A stretch of DNA of 64,000 nt from Lishizhenia tianjinensis (GTDB lineage Bacteria; Bacteroidota; Bacteroidia; Flavobacteriales_D; Crocinitomicaceae): contig NZ_FPAS01000005.1 of NCBI RefSeq assembly GCF_900116425.1, positions 124,001-188,000 of the forward strand. The letters are read 5' to 3'. Positions 6,580 through 61,333 of this stretch are shown here, one piece after another. A model generated the notes under the pieces. The model was not told where the DNA came from, made no database searches, and worked only from the letters and a program-made list of their open reading frames with translations. Every line of letters begins with the position of its first letter. Position 1 is the stretch's first letter. Both the position numbers and the translations under genes were made by a program.

Positions 6580-8940
6580 ATGCGAGGAATAACAACACTT
6601 TTTTTATGCCTGATAGTTTCCTTTATAGGTCTAGCTCAGGAAGGTACGCTGAGAGGTACCGTAACCGATCAAAAAACAGGTGAGGCCCTGTTCGGAATCA
6701 AAGTGAAAATTGTAGGTGAAGACAAAGGAGCGGTCACCGATTTTGATGGAAAGTATGAGATAAGCGGACTTTCACCGAAAACCTATGCTTTAGAAGCAAC
6801 AGGTACTGGGTATAAAGCGGAAATCAAATATAACATAGTGGTGAGATCAGGTGGTAACCCAGATGTAGACTTTGTTTTACAAGAAGAAGCCACAGATTTA
6901 GAAGGAGTAGAAATTGTTGCCAACCCTTTTAAAAAGGATAAGGAAACGCCTCTTTCTTCCAATAAATTGAGTCAAGAAGAAATTGCAACCTACCCTGGAG
7001 GGAACAATGATATTGCTAAAGTTGTACAATCGCTACCTGGAGTTTCGGGTTCTGTAGGTGGTTTTAGAAACGACGTGATTATACGTGGTGGAGCACCCAA
7101 CGAGAATGTATATTACTTGGATGGAATAGAAATTCCGAATATCAATCACTTCTCTACACAAGGGAGTGCGGGTGGACCCGTAGGTCTGCTCAATGTATCT
7201 TTCTTTGAAGGAGTAACGCTTTCAACGTCATCTTTTGGCGCACAATACGACAATGTACTTTCTGGAGTTTTACAGTTTGAGCAAAGAACGGGAAATGCAC
7301 GTGAGATGAAAACCAACTTTAGGTTGAGTAGTAGTGAAGCGGCATTGACTTTAGAAGGTCCTTTATTTAAGAAAGACAACGAAGAGGCTAAAACAACTTA
7401 CATCGTTTCTGCAAGAAGATCTTATTTACAGTTTTTGTTTCAGGTTTTAGACCTTCCTTTCTTACCCGATTACTGGGATTACCAATATAAAATCAACCAT
7501 AAAATCAATAAATACAATGAGTTGAACTTTACAGGTGTGGGTTCAATTGATGATTTTGCCATTAACGTACCGGATGAATTTGATGCCGAACAGCAAGCCA
7601 CTTTAGAGCAAATACCAGTGATCAAACAATGGACAACTACAAGCGGATTGAGTTGGAAAAAGCGTTTTAAAGATGTGAACGGATACATGCTTACGGCTGT
7701 GAGTAAGAATATTCTCAACAACAACTTTAAACGTTACCAAGACAATATTAACCTTACCGGTTTGTACTTAAACAACGAATCGCAAGAACAAGAAACAAAG
7801 GCGAGATACTATTACAAGCGTTTCTACGACAAATGGGAATTGGCCTTTGGTGGAGTGGTTCAGAATGTTGATTACTCCAATAGAACCACGAACACCGTTA
7901 GCGGATTTAATTATGAAAACGCATTGAACTTTTGGAAGTACGGTGCTTTCGTGCAGGCATCTACCAAAGTATTAAAGGATAAATTGAGCATTTCTGGAGG
8001 TTTGCGTTTTGATGGAAACGATTTCACCAAAAGAGGAAATGATATTTACAGAACCTTGAGTCCACGAGCGGCATTGTCTTATTCTTTAGACAAAAAACAA
8101 CGTTGGAGTTTGAACGCTTCTGTAGGTCGTTACTTCAAATTACCAAGTTATACGATTCTCGGGTTTACAGATAACCAAGGGATGTTTGCCAACAGAGAAG
8201 TTGACTACATTCAATCCGACCACTTGGTAGCAGGTGTAGAATTTTTATTGAATTCTTCTACAAAATTCACGATAGAAGGATTCTACAAGAAATACAGCAA
8301 TTACCCGGTGTCTTTAACAGACTCTGTGAGTTTGGCCAATTTAGGAGGAGATTTCTCTGTGTTAGGAAACGAACCGGTAACCAGTATAGGTTTAGGAAGA
8401 ACATACGGGGTGGAATTGTTGGCACAAAAGAAATTCACCAAACATTTCTATGGAGTTGCATCGGTTACTTTCTACAAGAGTGAGTTTACAAGTTTCGATG
8501 AAGATGTATACTTACCCTCAGCATGGGATAACAAAGTCTTGATCAGTTTAACGGGTGGATACAAGTTTGGCAAAAACTGGGAATTGAGTGCCAGAACACG
8601 CTTCTTAGGTAAAACACCTTACGCTCCTGTTGACGTAGAAGCAAGTGAGCAAACCTATCCTGCTTTGGTAAAAGATTACAACCGTTTGGGTGAGGAGTTC
8701 TTGGCTTCTTTCAACCAAACAGATATACGTATAGATAAGAAATGGAACTTTGAGAAGTGGACATTGGACATTTACTTCGAAGTGCAAAATGTTTTCGGAC
8801 AAGCTACTCCATCTGAACCTTCGTACGGTTTAGTGCAAGATGAAAACGGAGTGCCTGTTCAACCAACAGAATTGAAACAATTCCCATCAGTGGCTTCAGG
8901 AACTGTACTTCCTTCCCTAGGAATTGTGATAGATTTCTAA
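6580..8940 (+). CDS. TonB-dependent receptor with carboxypeptidase-like regulatory domain
   Basis: A 786-residue outer-membrane receptor. Residues 1-19 are a signal peptide (ending IGLAQ). Residues about 20-105 are a CarboxypepD-reg-like domain (GTLRGTVTDQKTGEALFGIK). The plug follows at about 110-230 with QSLPGVSGSVGG, VIIRGGAPNENVYYLDG and GLLNVSFFEGV. The rest is a 22-strand barrel rich in alternating aromatics, ending in a terminal phenylalanine (GIVIDF), the usual barrel signal. Substrate cannot be read from sequence; no SusD-like partner is adjacent, so a glycan SusCD system is unlikely and siderophore, peptide or vitamin uptake remain open. Confidence 0.92.
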   Translation: MRGITTLFLCLIVSFIGLAQEGTLRGTVTDQKTGEALFGIKVKIVGEDKGAVTDFDGKYEISGLSPKTYALEATGTGYKAEIKYNIVVRSGGNPDVDFVLQEEATDLEGVEIVANPFKKDKETPLSSNKLSQEEIATYPGGNNDIAKVVQSLPGVSGSVGGFRNDVIIRGGAPNENVYYLDGIEIPNINHFSTQGSAGGPVGLLNVSFFEGVTLSTSSFGAQYDNVLSGVLQFEQRTGNAREMKTNFRLSSSEAALTLEGPLFKKDNEEAKTTYIVSARRSYLQFLFQVLDLPFLPDYWDYQYKINHKINKYNELNFTGVGSIDDFAINVPDEFDAEQQATLEQIPVIKQWTTTSGLSWKKRFKDVNGYMLTAVSKNILNNNFKRYQDNINLTGLYLNNESQEQETKARYYYKRFYDKWELAFGGVVQNVDYSNRTTNTVSGFNYENALNFWKYGAFVQASTKVLKDKLSISGGLRFDGNDFTKRGNDIYRTLSPRAALSYSLDKKQRWSLNASVGRYFKLPSYTILGFTDNQGMFANREVDYIQSDHLVAGVEFLLNSSTKFTIEGFYKKYSNYPVSLTDSVSLANLGGDFSVLGNEPVTSIGLGRTYGVELLAQKKFTKHFYGVASVTFYKSEFTSFDEDVYLPSAWDNKVLISLTGGYKFGKNWELSARTRFLGKTPYAPVDVEASEQTYPALVKDYNRLGEEFLASFNQTDIRIDKKWNFEKWTLDIYFEVQNVFGQATPSEPSYGLVQDENGVPVQPTELKQFPSVASGTVLPSLGIVIDF

Positions 8941-50903: not shown

Positions 50904-51160
50904 TGAATATCCGCTATGTTGCCGAATGAAGGGGAAGTTTAAACCGTTTTAAAAAGAAAGAGGATAGCTTATCACCTGATTATAAAGCTAAGCAGCTACT
51001 TGTTACGATGAAAAAAGACAGTGTATAAATTTATCCTTTTTAAATCTTTATCTCGTACATGGTTTGGTAAGAAAAGCCACTATTTCTGGTCTATTTGTCT
51101 CATTTAGATGTAGCTTTCAAGGTGTCATTGAGGTCCATTCGGCAGAATGGCGGATATTCA
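50904..51160. mobile_element. MITE with 24-bp terminal inverted repeats
   Basis: Left end TGAATATCCGCTATGTTGCC GAAT (50904-50927) and right end the complement of TGAATATCCGCCATTCTGCC GAAT (51137-51160): 22 of 24 positions pair. The 257-bp unit has no ORF. Its ends closely match the ends of the IS1595-like element at 60399-61327 (TGAATCTCCGCTATTCTGCC). No clear target duplication could be seen. It lies between the S9 peptidase terminator and the GT9 gene. Confidence 0.75.
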
Positions 51161-60398: not shown

Positions 60399-61327
60399 TG
60401 AATCTCCGCTATTCTGCCGAGCAATTTTAGTTTTTCGGCAAATTGTCGTAACTTTTTTTAAATCAATCAACCTAAATTGTCATGACGAATTTTGAATTCT
60501 ATCATTTTTTCGATAAAGAAAACAACTGTCTAAATTTCTTTAAAAAGTATTATCAAAGGGTGCTTCATAAGTGTCCTAAATGTGGTCACGAAAAGCTGAA
60601 ATGGAGTAAGAAAATCATAGGCTGGAGGTGCTGTAAATGCTCAAAGAAAATTTCTTTAAAATCTATTTCTTTTATGAGGGACAGCAATAAATTGTTTATG
60701 GATTGGCTAGAGATTTTGCATTTGGTTTGCCATTCAAAAAAATCAGTTTCTATTAATGAGATCTTCCGTAAATCCAGGCAAACAAGGTATGAAACAGTCT
60801 ATCATATGGTACAGAAAATTCGTGTAGAAATGGGTAAGATAAACAGTATAGACGCAATTAATTCATATACAGAGTTTATGTTTTTGGAAATGAATAGAAA
60901 GGTATTTATGAATTTGCCTTTGTCAATTCGGATGACTTTTTGGAAGTCTCCAACGAGAACTAGAGATAAGGTTAGGTTGGTAGTACCTGTATTTTTACAC
61001 GAGGCAATTTTGAATACAAAAGTTCAACTGTTAGAGAAAAATAATTATCCCTACAAGAAATTACTCTTCGTAAATCATGAAATTGTTTTCAATAAGAAAG
61101 CGACACAATTGAGTGAGGAAATAATTAACCTAAAATGGAGGAGTCATTTAAGGAACAATGTAATGAAATTATTGAAAGGAATTTATCATTATACCACGGG
61201 CTTACATTTGCAGGGAGTCCTTGATGAATATAGCTTTAAGTACAATTATAGGAATACCAAATGGTGTAAATTGAGGATGTTTATGAATCTTGAAATTAAA
61301 TGCATTCGGCAGAATAACGGAGACTCA
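60399..61327 (+). mobile_element. IS1595-like insertion element
   Basis: Terminal inverted repeats: 60399-60420 (TGAATCTCCGCTATTCTGCC GA) pairs with 61306-61327 at 20 of 22 positions. One ORF (60482-61333) fills the interior. The ends match the MITE at 50904-51160. Target duplications could not be identified. The right inverted repeat overlaps the last codons of the ORF, whose stop lies 4 nt outside the repeat. Confidence 0.75.
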
Positions 61328-61333
61328 GGGTAG
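60482..61333 (+). CDS. IS1595-family-like transposase lacking evident DDE acids
   Basis: A 283-residue protein with N-terminal zinc ribbon (HKCPKCGHEKLKWSKK then GWRCCKCSKKISLK, two CxxC pairs at about residues 31-34 and 51-54) and a helical region, as in IS1595 (ISXO2-like) transposases. The C-terminus LKGIYHYTTGLHLQGVLDEY matches the family's late motif (GIHH...HLDRYLAEF-type). Yet where the family carries the three catalytic acids, the sequence reads LEMNRK, FVNHEIVF and RNNVMKLLKG: D, D and E are not seen by eye. The ORF is intact. AT-rich compared with neighbours, consistent with transfer. Confidence 0.75.
   Translation: MTNFEFYHFFDKENNCLNFFKKYYQRVLHKCPKCGHEKLKWSKKIIGWRCCKCSKKISLKSISFMRDSNKLFMDWLEILHLVCHSKKSVSINEIFRKSRQTRYETVYHMVQKIRVEMGKINSIDAINSYTEFMFLEMNRKVFMNLPLSIRMTFWKSPTRTRDKVRLVVPVFLHEAILNTKVQLLEKNNYPYKKLLFVNHEIVFNKKATQLSEEIINLKWRSHLRNNVMKLLKGIYHYTTGLHLQGVLDEYSFKYNYRNTKWCKLRMFMNLEIKCIRQNNGDSG

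Follow-up and report, generated by a model that had tools for sequence, protein, structure and literature searches.

How an insertion sequence can keep an open transposase frame and well-matched ends when its catalytic aspartates appear to be gone is the question raised by one element in the stretch of Lishizhenia tianjinensis DNA analysed here (64,000 nucleotides, called the window). A sequence-only reading had reported an intact ORF between ends with 20 of 22 matching inverted-repeat bases, and had left three options for it: a divergent active site, a domesticated DNA-binding protein or a trans-mobilised element. Frame and ends held up. The element spans 929 bp (60399-61327), its inverted ends of 22 bp match at 20 positions, and its ORF (60482-61333) starts with ATG and runs uninterrupted for 283 aa. 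The 3' codons of the ORF lie within the right repeat and the stop falls 6 bp past that repeat; the element proper therefore ends at 61327. The features of the window, with D1 and D2 standing for the first and second catalytic Asp, are:

60399-60420, forward strand: left terminal inverted repeat, 22 bp, matching 61306-61327 at 20/22 positions
60446-60481, forward strand: conserved 5' leader of the TCGTAACTT...AATCAACCTAA type ahead of the ATG, from a comparison of leaders among own-genome copies
60482-61333, forward strand: ORF of 283 aa, IS1595-type transposase without D1 and D2
60572-60640, forward strand: zinc-ribbon region with C31, C34, C50 and C53, from conservation in 17 copies
60695-60838, forward strand: predicted helical (HTH-like) segment, residues 72-119 (predicted helices 72-84, 91-97 and 103-118; NF033547 match 72-125)
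60878-60889, forward strand: expected place of the first catalytic Asp by alignment, residues 133-136 (MFLE), no Asp
61055-61075, forward strand: KKLLFVN, residues 192-198, near the expected second catalytic Asp by alignment, no Asp
61157-61159, forward strand: Asn226, unchanged in all aligned copies, DD-bearing or DD-less
61306-61327, reverse strand: right terminal inverted repeat, overlapping the 3' end of the ORF, 20/22 match with the left repeat
50904-51160, strand not assigned: satellite doublet of the window element's end type, 257 bp span, arms 50904-50925 and 51139-51160

Within the leader, TAACTT is found in 16/17 and CAACCTAA in 13/17 of the own-genome copies described below.

Family match and catalytic residues

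Judged by its profile matches, the window ORF is homologous to IS1595 transposases, and the match is real but partial. NCBIfam NF033547 aligned in two stretches (E 3e-9, 37.1 bits, with the cut-off of 75 not reached), and Pfam PF12762 aligned over its positions 84-153 of 153 alone, also under its cut-off (E 0.0086). A DD-bearing Bacteroidota relative used as control (L117) matched both profiles over its full length. The family search with the window protein returned IS1595-type, zinc-ribbon-like and weak unrelated matches at E ≤ 10, and no HUH family among them. The zinc ribbon recognised by the sequence-only reading, which scored weakly against Pfam (E 2.9), is borne out by conservation: C31, C34 and C53 are present in all 17 own-genome proteins and C50 in at least 90% of them.

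Catalytic columns were scored by aligning the 17 own-genome proteins with 16 DD-bearing relatives, and here the earlier claim that the catalytic Asp pair is missing was confirmed. At D1, all 16 DD-bearing proteins have Asp compared with 1/17 of the own-genome set, the window copy having Met. At D2, the figures are 16/16 and 0/17, and the own-genome proteins share a gap of about ten residues in this segment. With D1 in 1/17 and D2 in 0/17, no protein of the set has the complete D, D and third residue of the DDE-type catalytic domain by which IS1595 members are recognised. D1 appears eroded rather than cleanly cut out, because in some copies a D or E stands one or two columns from the expected position, in an alignment that places D1 to within 1-2 residues. 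The third catalytic position is His in 13/16 and Ser in 3/16 of the DD-bearing proteins, versus His in 0/17 and Ser in 3/17 of the own-genome set. NNVMKLLKG had been taken for the place of a lost catalytic residue; its Asn (N226) is invariant in both sets (16/16 and 17/17). The third position of the window copy is Ser. The invariant acids of the 17 proteins are E13 and E249, with D162 near-invariant.

AlphaFold2 placed residues 1-120 of the window protein at a pLDDT of about 70-87 in blocks of ten. With alignments of 12 and 11 rows, the catalytic part was mostly below 50 in the window protein and in the DD-bearing control alike, which gave no usable model past residue 120; Foldseek with this model, of low pLDDT past that residue, returned no match at E ≤ 0.001.

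Seventeen paralogues with their own ends

A protein search of the L. tianjinensis genome identified 17 loci, namely the window copy and 16 others at 30-50% local identity to it (27-48% over the full alignment), each single-copy and mutually distinct. Their frames are open throughout, to about the expected C-terminus, except in L011, which has a TAA close to its C-terminal end. The window element is therefore not an isolated relic, but a member of a family. Profile searches of the same genome with PF12762 (15 places) and NF033547 (31 places) led to these 17 loci only, and to no DD-bearing IS1595 copy; L016 is the one own copy over both cut-offs (NF033547 78.9 bits), though it has neither D1 nor D2. 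In a tree of 56 rows, made after excluding proteins shorter than 215 aa and then eight partial or near-duplicate rows, the 17 copies group as a single clade (SH-aLRT 99). Among ten pairs of the group termed B (55-67% identity), the fraction of sites that differ was 0.33 at codon position 1, 0.22 at position 2 and 0.58 at position 3.

Other genomes carry DD-less sets of their own, and DD-bearing IS1595 relatives occur in the same family as the window's organism. The DD-less set of G006 groups with DD-bearing rows in the tree (support 84), so that loss of D may have occurred more than once. L087 (G084) has kept D1 and lost D2, and L247 (G335) has Asn at D1 and, by eye, no obvious D2; these intermediates in other genera likewise suggest repeated loss. 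The window protein had no match in a phage collection, one plasmid record showed 29% identity over 42% of the query, and viral contigs contained two distant relatives.

Own inverted ends were detected in 15/17 copies (the window copy plus 14 others). The remaining two, L002 and L004, have no detectable right end and instead feature two paired end-like sites ahead of the ATG; the pair is clear in L004, with a span of 174 bp, and weak in L002. Over 16 end pairs, with the upstream pair of L004 counted and L002 excluded, the two ends of an element match on average at 19.4 of 22 positions (minimum 17), versus 12.8 between elements. End similarity and protein similarity are correlated (Mantel r 0.66 for the N-terminal, 0.59 for the middle and 0.61 for the C-terminal part), and the N-terminal value was reached by none of 5000 permutations. 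As r is similar in all parts of the protein, the correlation is not specific to the DNA-binding part.

Paired end sequences outside the elements

The end sequences also occur as pairs away from the elements. In the window, the doublet at 50904-51160 has inverted arms that are 19/22 alike and lies in non-coding DNA between two convergent ORFs. When the own genome was searched for TGATTNNNCGCANNNTTNCC, at most one mismatch being allowed, 36 sites emerged and the reversed control gave 2; the 36 include eight head-to-head group-B pairs outside elements (196-220 bp). These eight doublets are only 41-51% identical in a multiple alignment even with ends and 30-bp flanks counted, which indicates that their interiors are unrelated. 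A weight-matrix scan of the ends over 20 own-genome stretches (17 centred on elements, three picked for TGATTNNNCGCANNNTTNCC matches) gave 32 inward and 0 outward end pairs; the inward pairs comprise 14 element ends and 18 doublets, of which 17 measure 140-257 bp and one 528 bp. A nineteenth doublet (L208, C4:18984-19155, 172 bp) has no element assigned to it. Genome-wide, the end pattern was found at 63 sites, compared with 7 in the control.

In these stretches, most of them picked for the elements they contain, doublets tend to carry the end type of an element nearby. This holds for 13/18, distributed over L001 (3), L003 (1), L004 (2), L007 (2), L008 (1), L009 (1) and L012 (3). The other five are of group-B type and lie far from L012; they make up five of the eight group-B doublets, and locality is therefore not general. 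At the other extreme, all 13 L007-type sites, two of them the ends of L007 itself, fall within C8:303002-333510, a span of under 31 kb in a genome of 3.56 Mb, and a direct array holds three L007-type sites in 236 bp. When doublets were scored by type in 20-kb stretches, 7/16 own elements had cognate doublets nearby (12 doublets, 0 outward), as did 1/10 other DD-less and 0/6 DD-bearing elements, counts that alone do not separate DD-less from DD-bearing. Of 20 further stretches in this test, 13 were scored (7 DD-less, 6 DD-bearing) and seven were dropped for want of end sequence; L002 and the compact G026/G251 loci were left out, and the single G129 doublet was counted once. No cognate doublet was found within the stretch scanned at 9/16 own and 9/10 other DD-less elements; four of these nine own elements belong to group B, and doublets of that group's L012-type motif occur elsewhere.

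None of the 18 doublets overlaps an ORF of at least 90 aa (the 528-bp unit not being among the 18 of this count). Their flanking ORFs are convergent in eight cases, tandem in five and divergent in five, against a background of 25, 44 and 25 for gaps of at least 200 bp. With no clear bias in gene orientation, a simple promoter regulon was rejected; the ORFs beside the eight group-B doublets also look unrelated by eye. MITEs and mobile insertion cassettes are short units bearing the ends of a larger element, and the own-genome units resemble them in carrying element ends and, in one case, a DUF1801 ORF. A MITE reading of the units of about 200 bp was nevertheless rejected, as their interiors are unrelated and they have no target duplications, direct repeats at the 32 own pairs not being in excess at any offset. 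Similarity to the own element did not exceed all of 40 shuffles for 16/18 interiors. The 528-bp unit (L194, C2:1170695-1171222) lies about 10 kb from L008 and consists of an L008-type end pair around a 127-aa DUF1801 ORF (Pfam E 1.5e-8); the ORF looks like a passenger or captured gene, a putative sign of past mobility.

Doublets are also found in related lineages. In four ortholog pairs of G026 and G251, the end sequence occurs twice, head to head, directly upstream of the ATG (by eye). For the type of the L139/L142 pair, a pattern search found three doublets per species and four extra single sites in G251, with none in the reversed control, and by their flanks the three doublets are orthologous between the species. 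Two of them show one and the same difference in both arms, CCG[C/T]G or ACGCG in G026 versus ACGGG in G251, while the flanking intergenic DNA has diverged; the third has different single changes in its two arms. Matched changes in the arms are what selection on a putative symmetric binding site predicts, with gene conversion between arms as an alternative source. Some arrangements differ from the inverted doublet: a direct, iteron-like array of six cognate end copies lies 5 kb from a G006 gene (L279:14489-14975, G006:C175), a similar array in G251 holds three (G251:C147:3215-3502), and a DD-less element of G129 (L280, G129:C246, 509-1608) is bordered on either side by two copies of the end, with a cognate doublet at a distance of about 5 kb (6592-6699). 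By eye, several otherwise diverged DD-less genes of G026/G251 have in common a motif like CACAAAGTCG(T/C)TG between end and ATG.

Selection, mobility and possible function

No congener of L. tianjinensis turned up among the genomes searched; selection was tested in G026/G251, a lineage of genus g27 that belongs to the same order as the window's organism and to a different family. All seven orthologous DD-less pairs (7/7) occupy the same loci in the two genomes, over alignments of 2.3-3.8 kb including flanks, with the downstream flank rearranged in the L139/L142 pair. In this lineage the DD-less genes at fixed loci are under purifying selection, with Nei-Gojobori dN/dS values of 0.12, 0.20, 0.12, 0.27, 0.17, 0.17 and 0.21, the fourth from a copy left partial by an assembly gap. 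The N-terminal third has the lowest dN in 6/7 pairs. Five of the seven pairs align free of gaps, and the other two differ in frame extent or cross assembly gaps. Three genes are found in G251 only, and recent insertion was rejected for two of these candidate gains: remnants at the same G026 site reveal ORF deletions, so that both were lost in G026 and not gained in G251.

Exact 8-bp target-site duplications flank 8/22 DD-bearing and 0/29 DD-less elements (one-sided Fisher p 5e-4), among elements with detectable ends and flank; the 29 comprise 15 own copies and 14 elsewhere, three orthologous pairs being among the 14. G026 contains four right-end fragments of an L135-like element, located at different loci with different flanks and 94-100% identical to one another; the catalytic segment is missing from the assembly. 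Such near-identity signals that a close relative multiplied recently, and residual mobility may persist. The near-identical L135-like material of G026 lies at several loci, mostly at contig edges (L145, L147, L148, L150, L152 and L153), and L153 looks like a 274-bp deletion derivative.

Taken together, the data are probably best explained by domestication of an IS1595-derived protein family that no longer cuts, binds transposon ends and has cognate paired sites, an analogue of RAYT/REPIN with DDE ancestry. The family itself, the loss of D2, the matched ends and the cognate doublets are observed directly; purifying selection, fixity and matched arm changes are observed in G026/G251. The 17 ORFs would be diverged descendants of an IS1595-type transposase in which the catalytic Asp residues are gone and the zinc-ribbon/HTH and C-terminal regions remain. 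Most likely, the former transposon ends of each element are bound by the N-terminal part of its protein. These ends would now serve as sites that flank the gene (15/17) or sit paired just upstream of it (L004 and, weakly, L002) and that, for several copies, recur as inverted intergenic doublets, often within ten or so kb. A dimer is proposed to bridge both arms of a doublet and hold a short DNA loop without cutting; such a loop could autoregulate the protein's own gene and influence the shape or regulation of the surrounding chromosome, to the presumed benefit of the host. The partial clustering of sites and the lack of a clear orientation bias fit a local structural role no less well than a promoter regulon. 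The more specific proposal, that dead IS1595 descendants with many parallel specificities and their own paired sites act as local DNA-bridging or looping regulators, are no longer mobile and constitute the DDE counterpart of RAYT/REPIN, is made tentatively, and we would put it slightly short of probable. Of the three options raised by the sequence-only reading, a domesticated DNA-binding protein fits best, given selection in G026/G251, the loss of D2, the lack of target-site duplications and the cognate sites; the other two fared less well.

One of them holds that an end-sharing DD-bearing IS1595 transposase, which comes and goes, moves the DD-less copies and the doublets as non-autonomous units. 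DD-bearing relatives with similar end architecture do occur in other genera, 8-bp duplications being found at 8/22 of them, the 528-bp L008-type unit with its DUF1801 ORF is cassette-like, and L153 resembles an internal-deletion derivative. Within L. tianjinensis the idea is weak because no DD-bearing IS1595 copy was found there, and the many end types would require many helpers. Nor would passive movement account for ORFs under purifying selection in G026/G251, which such an element does not need, or for doublet interiors as dissimilar as those of group B (41-51%) and the 16/18 that failed to exceed all 40 shuffles; direct repeats are not in excess at the 32 own pairs, and none is exact at the 29 DD-less elements. 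We regard trans-mobilisation as unlikely. A transposase still active through an unconventional active site, the other option, could explain intact frames, matched ends, the expansion to 17 copies within the lineage and the near-identical right ends of the L135-like element in G026. It is improbable on present evidence, and gained no positive support from the alignment: D2 is missing from 17/17 with a gap in its segment, and the 17 proteins share no new conserved D-D-E set of acids. Exact target-site duplications are lacking as well, the elements have stayed in place at the seven comparable G026/G251 loci, and two absences there are deletions.

Two further explanations lie outside these options. 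Ordinary dying insertion sequences, their frames open by chance, would be in keeping with the apparently stepwise erosion of D1 (L087 keeps D1 and not D2), with the absence of target-site duplications and with the finding that ORFs can be deleted. That all 17 frames should remain open to about the expected C-terminus (L011 stopping near its end) makes this hard to accept, as do dN/dS values of 0.12-0.27 and gap-free alignment of 5/7 ortholog pairs in G026/G251, and the identical change in both arms of doublets; we consider it very improbable. The proteins could instead be vertically kept, non-cutting repressors that occupy the ends of incoming IS1595 elements as a defence, a role suited to a dead transposase with its DNA-binding part intact and many specificities, in a family where DD-bearing relatives are present. 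Intergenic doublets near the cognate gene and matched arm changes would then be left unexplained, and this too seems unlikely.

Among known systems, the starting point is the IS1595 family (ISXO2/Merlin-related), in which 8-bp duplications and a DDE domain are usual (PMC8101967). The window element is alike in having one ORF in about 0.9 kb, a zinc ribbon, a C-terminal motif and imperfect inverted repeats, and it differs in lacking the catalytic Asp and the 8-bp duplications and in falling below the NCBIfam cut-off. Similar ends occur in the DD-bearing Bacteroidota relatives of this analysis; the DD-less family differs in its extra cognate doublets and in having relatives fixed at loci under purifying selection. 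The window element is best called IS1595-derived, a label based on comparison of sequences. Another case of catalysis lost in a transposon protein is TldR, which descended from TnpB and has lost nuclease activity; we know of no terminal-repeat pairs in TldR systems. TldRs are RNA-guided transcription factors (PMC13418256), which makes them similar as transposon-derived proteins turned DNA-binding regulators after loss of catalysis (here putatively) and different in being RNA-guided and of another protein family.

The closest working parallel appears to be RAYT/REPIN, by analogy of arrangement. These REPtrons combine single-copy, distinct, vertically inherited transposases with cognate inverted doublets that have a variable spacer and form clusters beside the transposase genes, at 69-235 REPINs per E. 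coli genome (PMC8049555, PMC3116915); RAYTs are HUH transposases, and TnpAREP of E. coli processes its REP in vitro (PMC8049555, PMC3116915, PMC8266576). The DD-less family likewise features single-copy, distinct, transposase-derived genes (vertical inheritance being drawn from G026/G251 only), own intergenic inverted doublets, some of them beside the gene (7/16 own elements, and also G026/G251 and G129), and co-divergence of protein and repeat. It differs in that it derives from a DDE/IS1595 and not an HUH tyrosine transposase and has lost the catalytic Asp, in that at most about twenty sites were found per type, often clustered near the gene, and in a doublet spacer of roughly at least 100 bp in the own genome. 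In the literature covered (titles and abstract starts, with most subscription papers outside that coverage), we found no report of DD-less IS1595 families or of their satellites.

Three features go beyond what had been read from the single element: the set of paralogues, the ends that diverged along with them and the satellite doublets. If an unrelated transposase did reach a similar arrangement after losing catalysis, binding would be separable from copying and the paired sites would be kept for the effects of binding, a question that is testable. An annotation as 'transposase' can mask a multi-copy, selected DNA-binding family.
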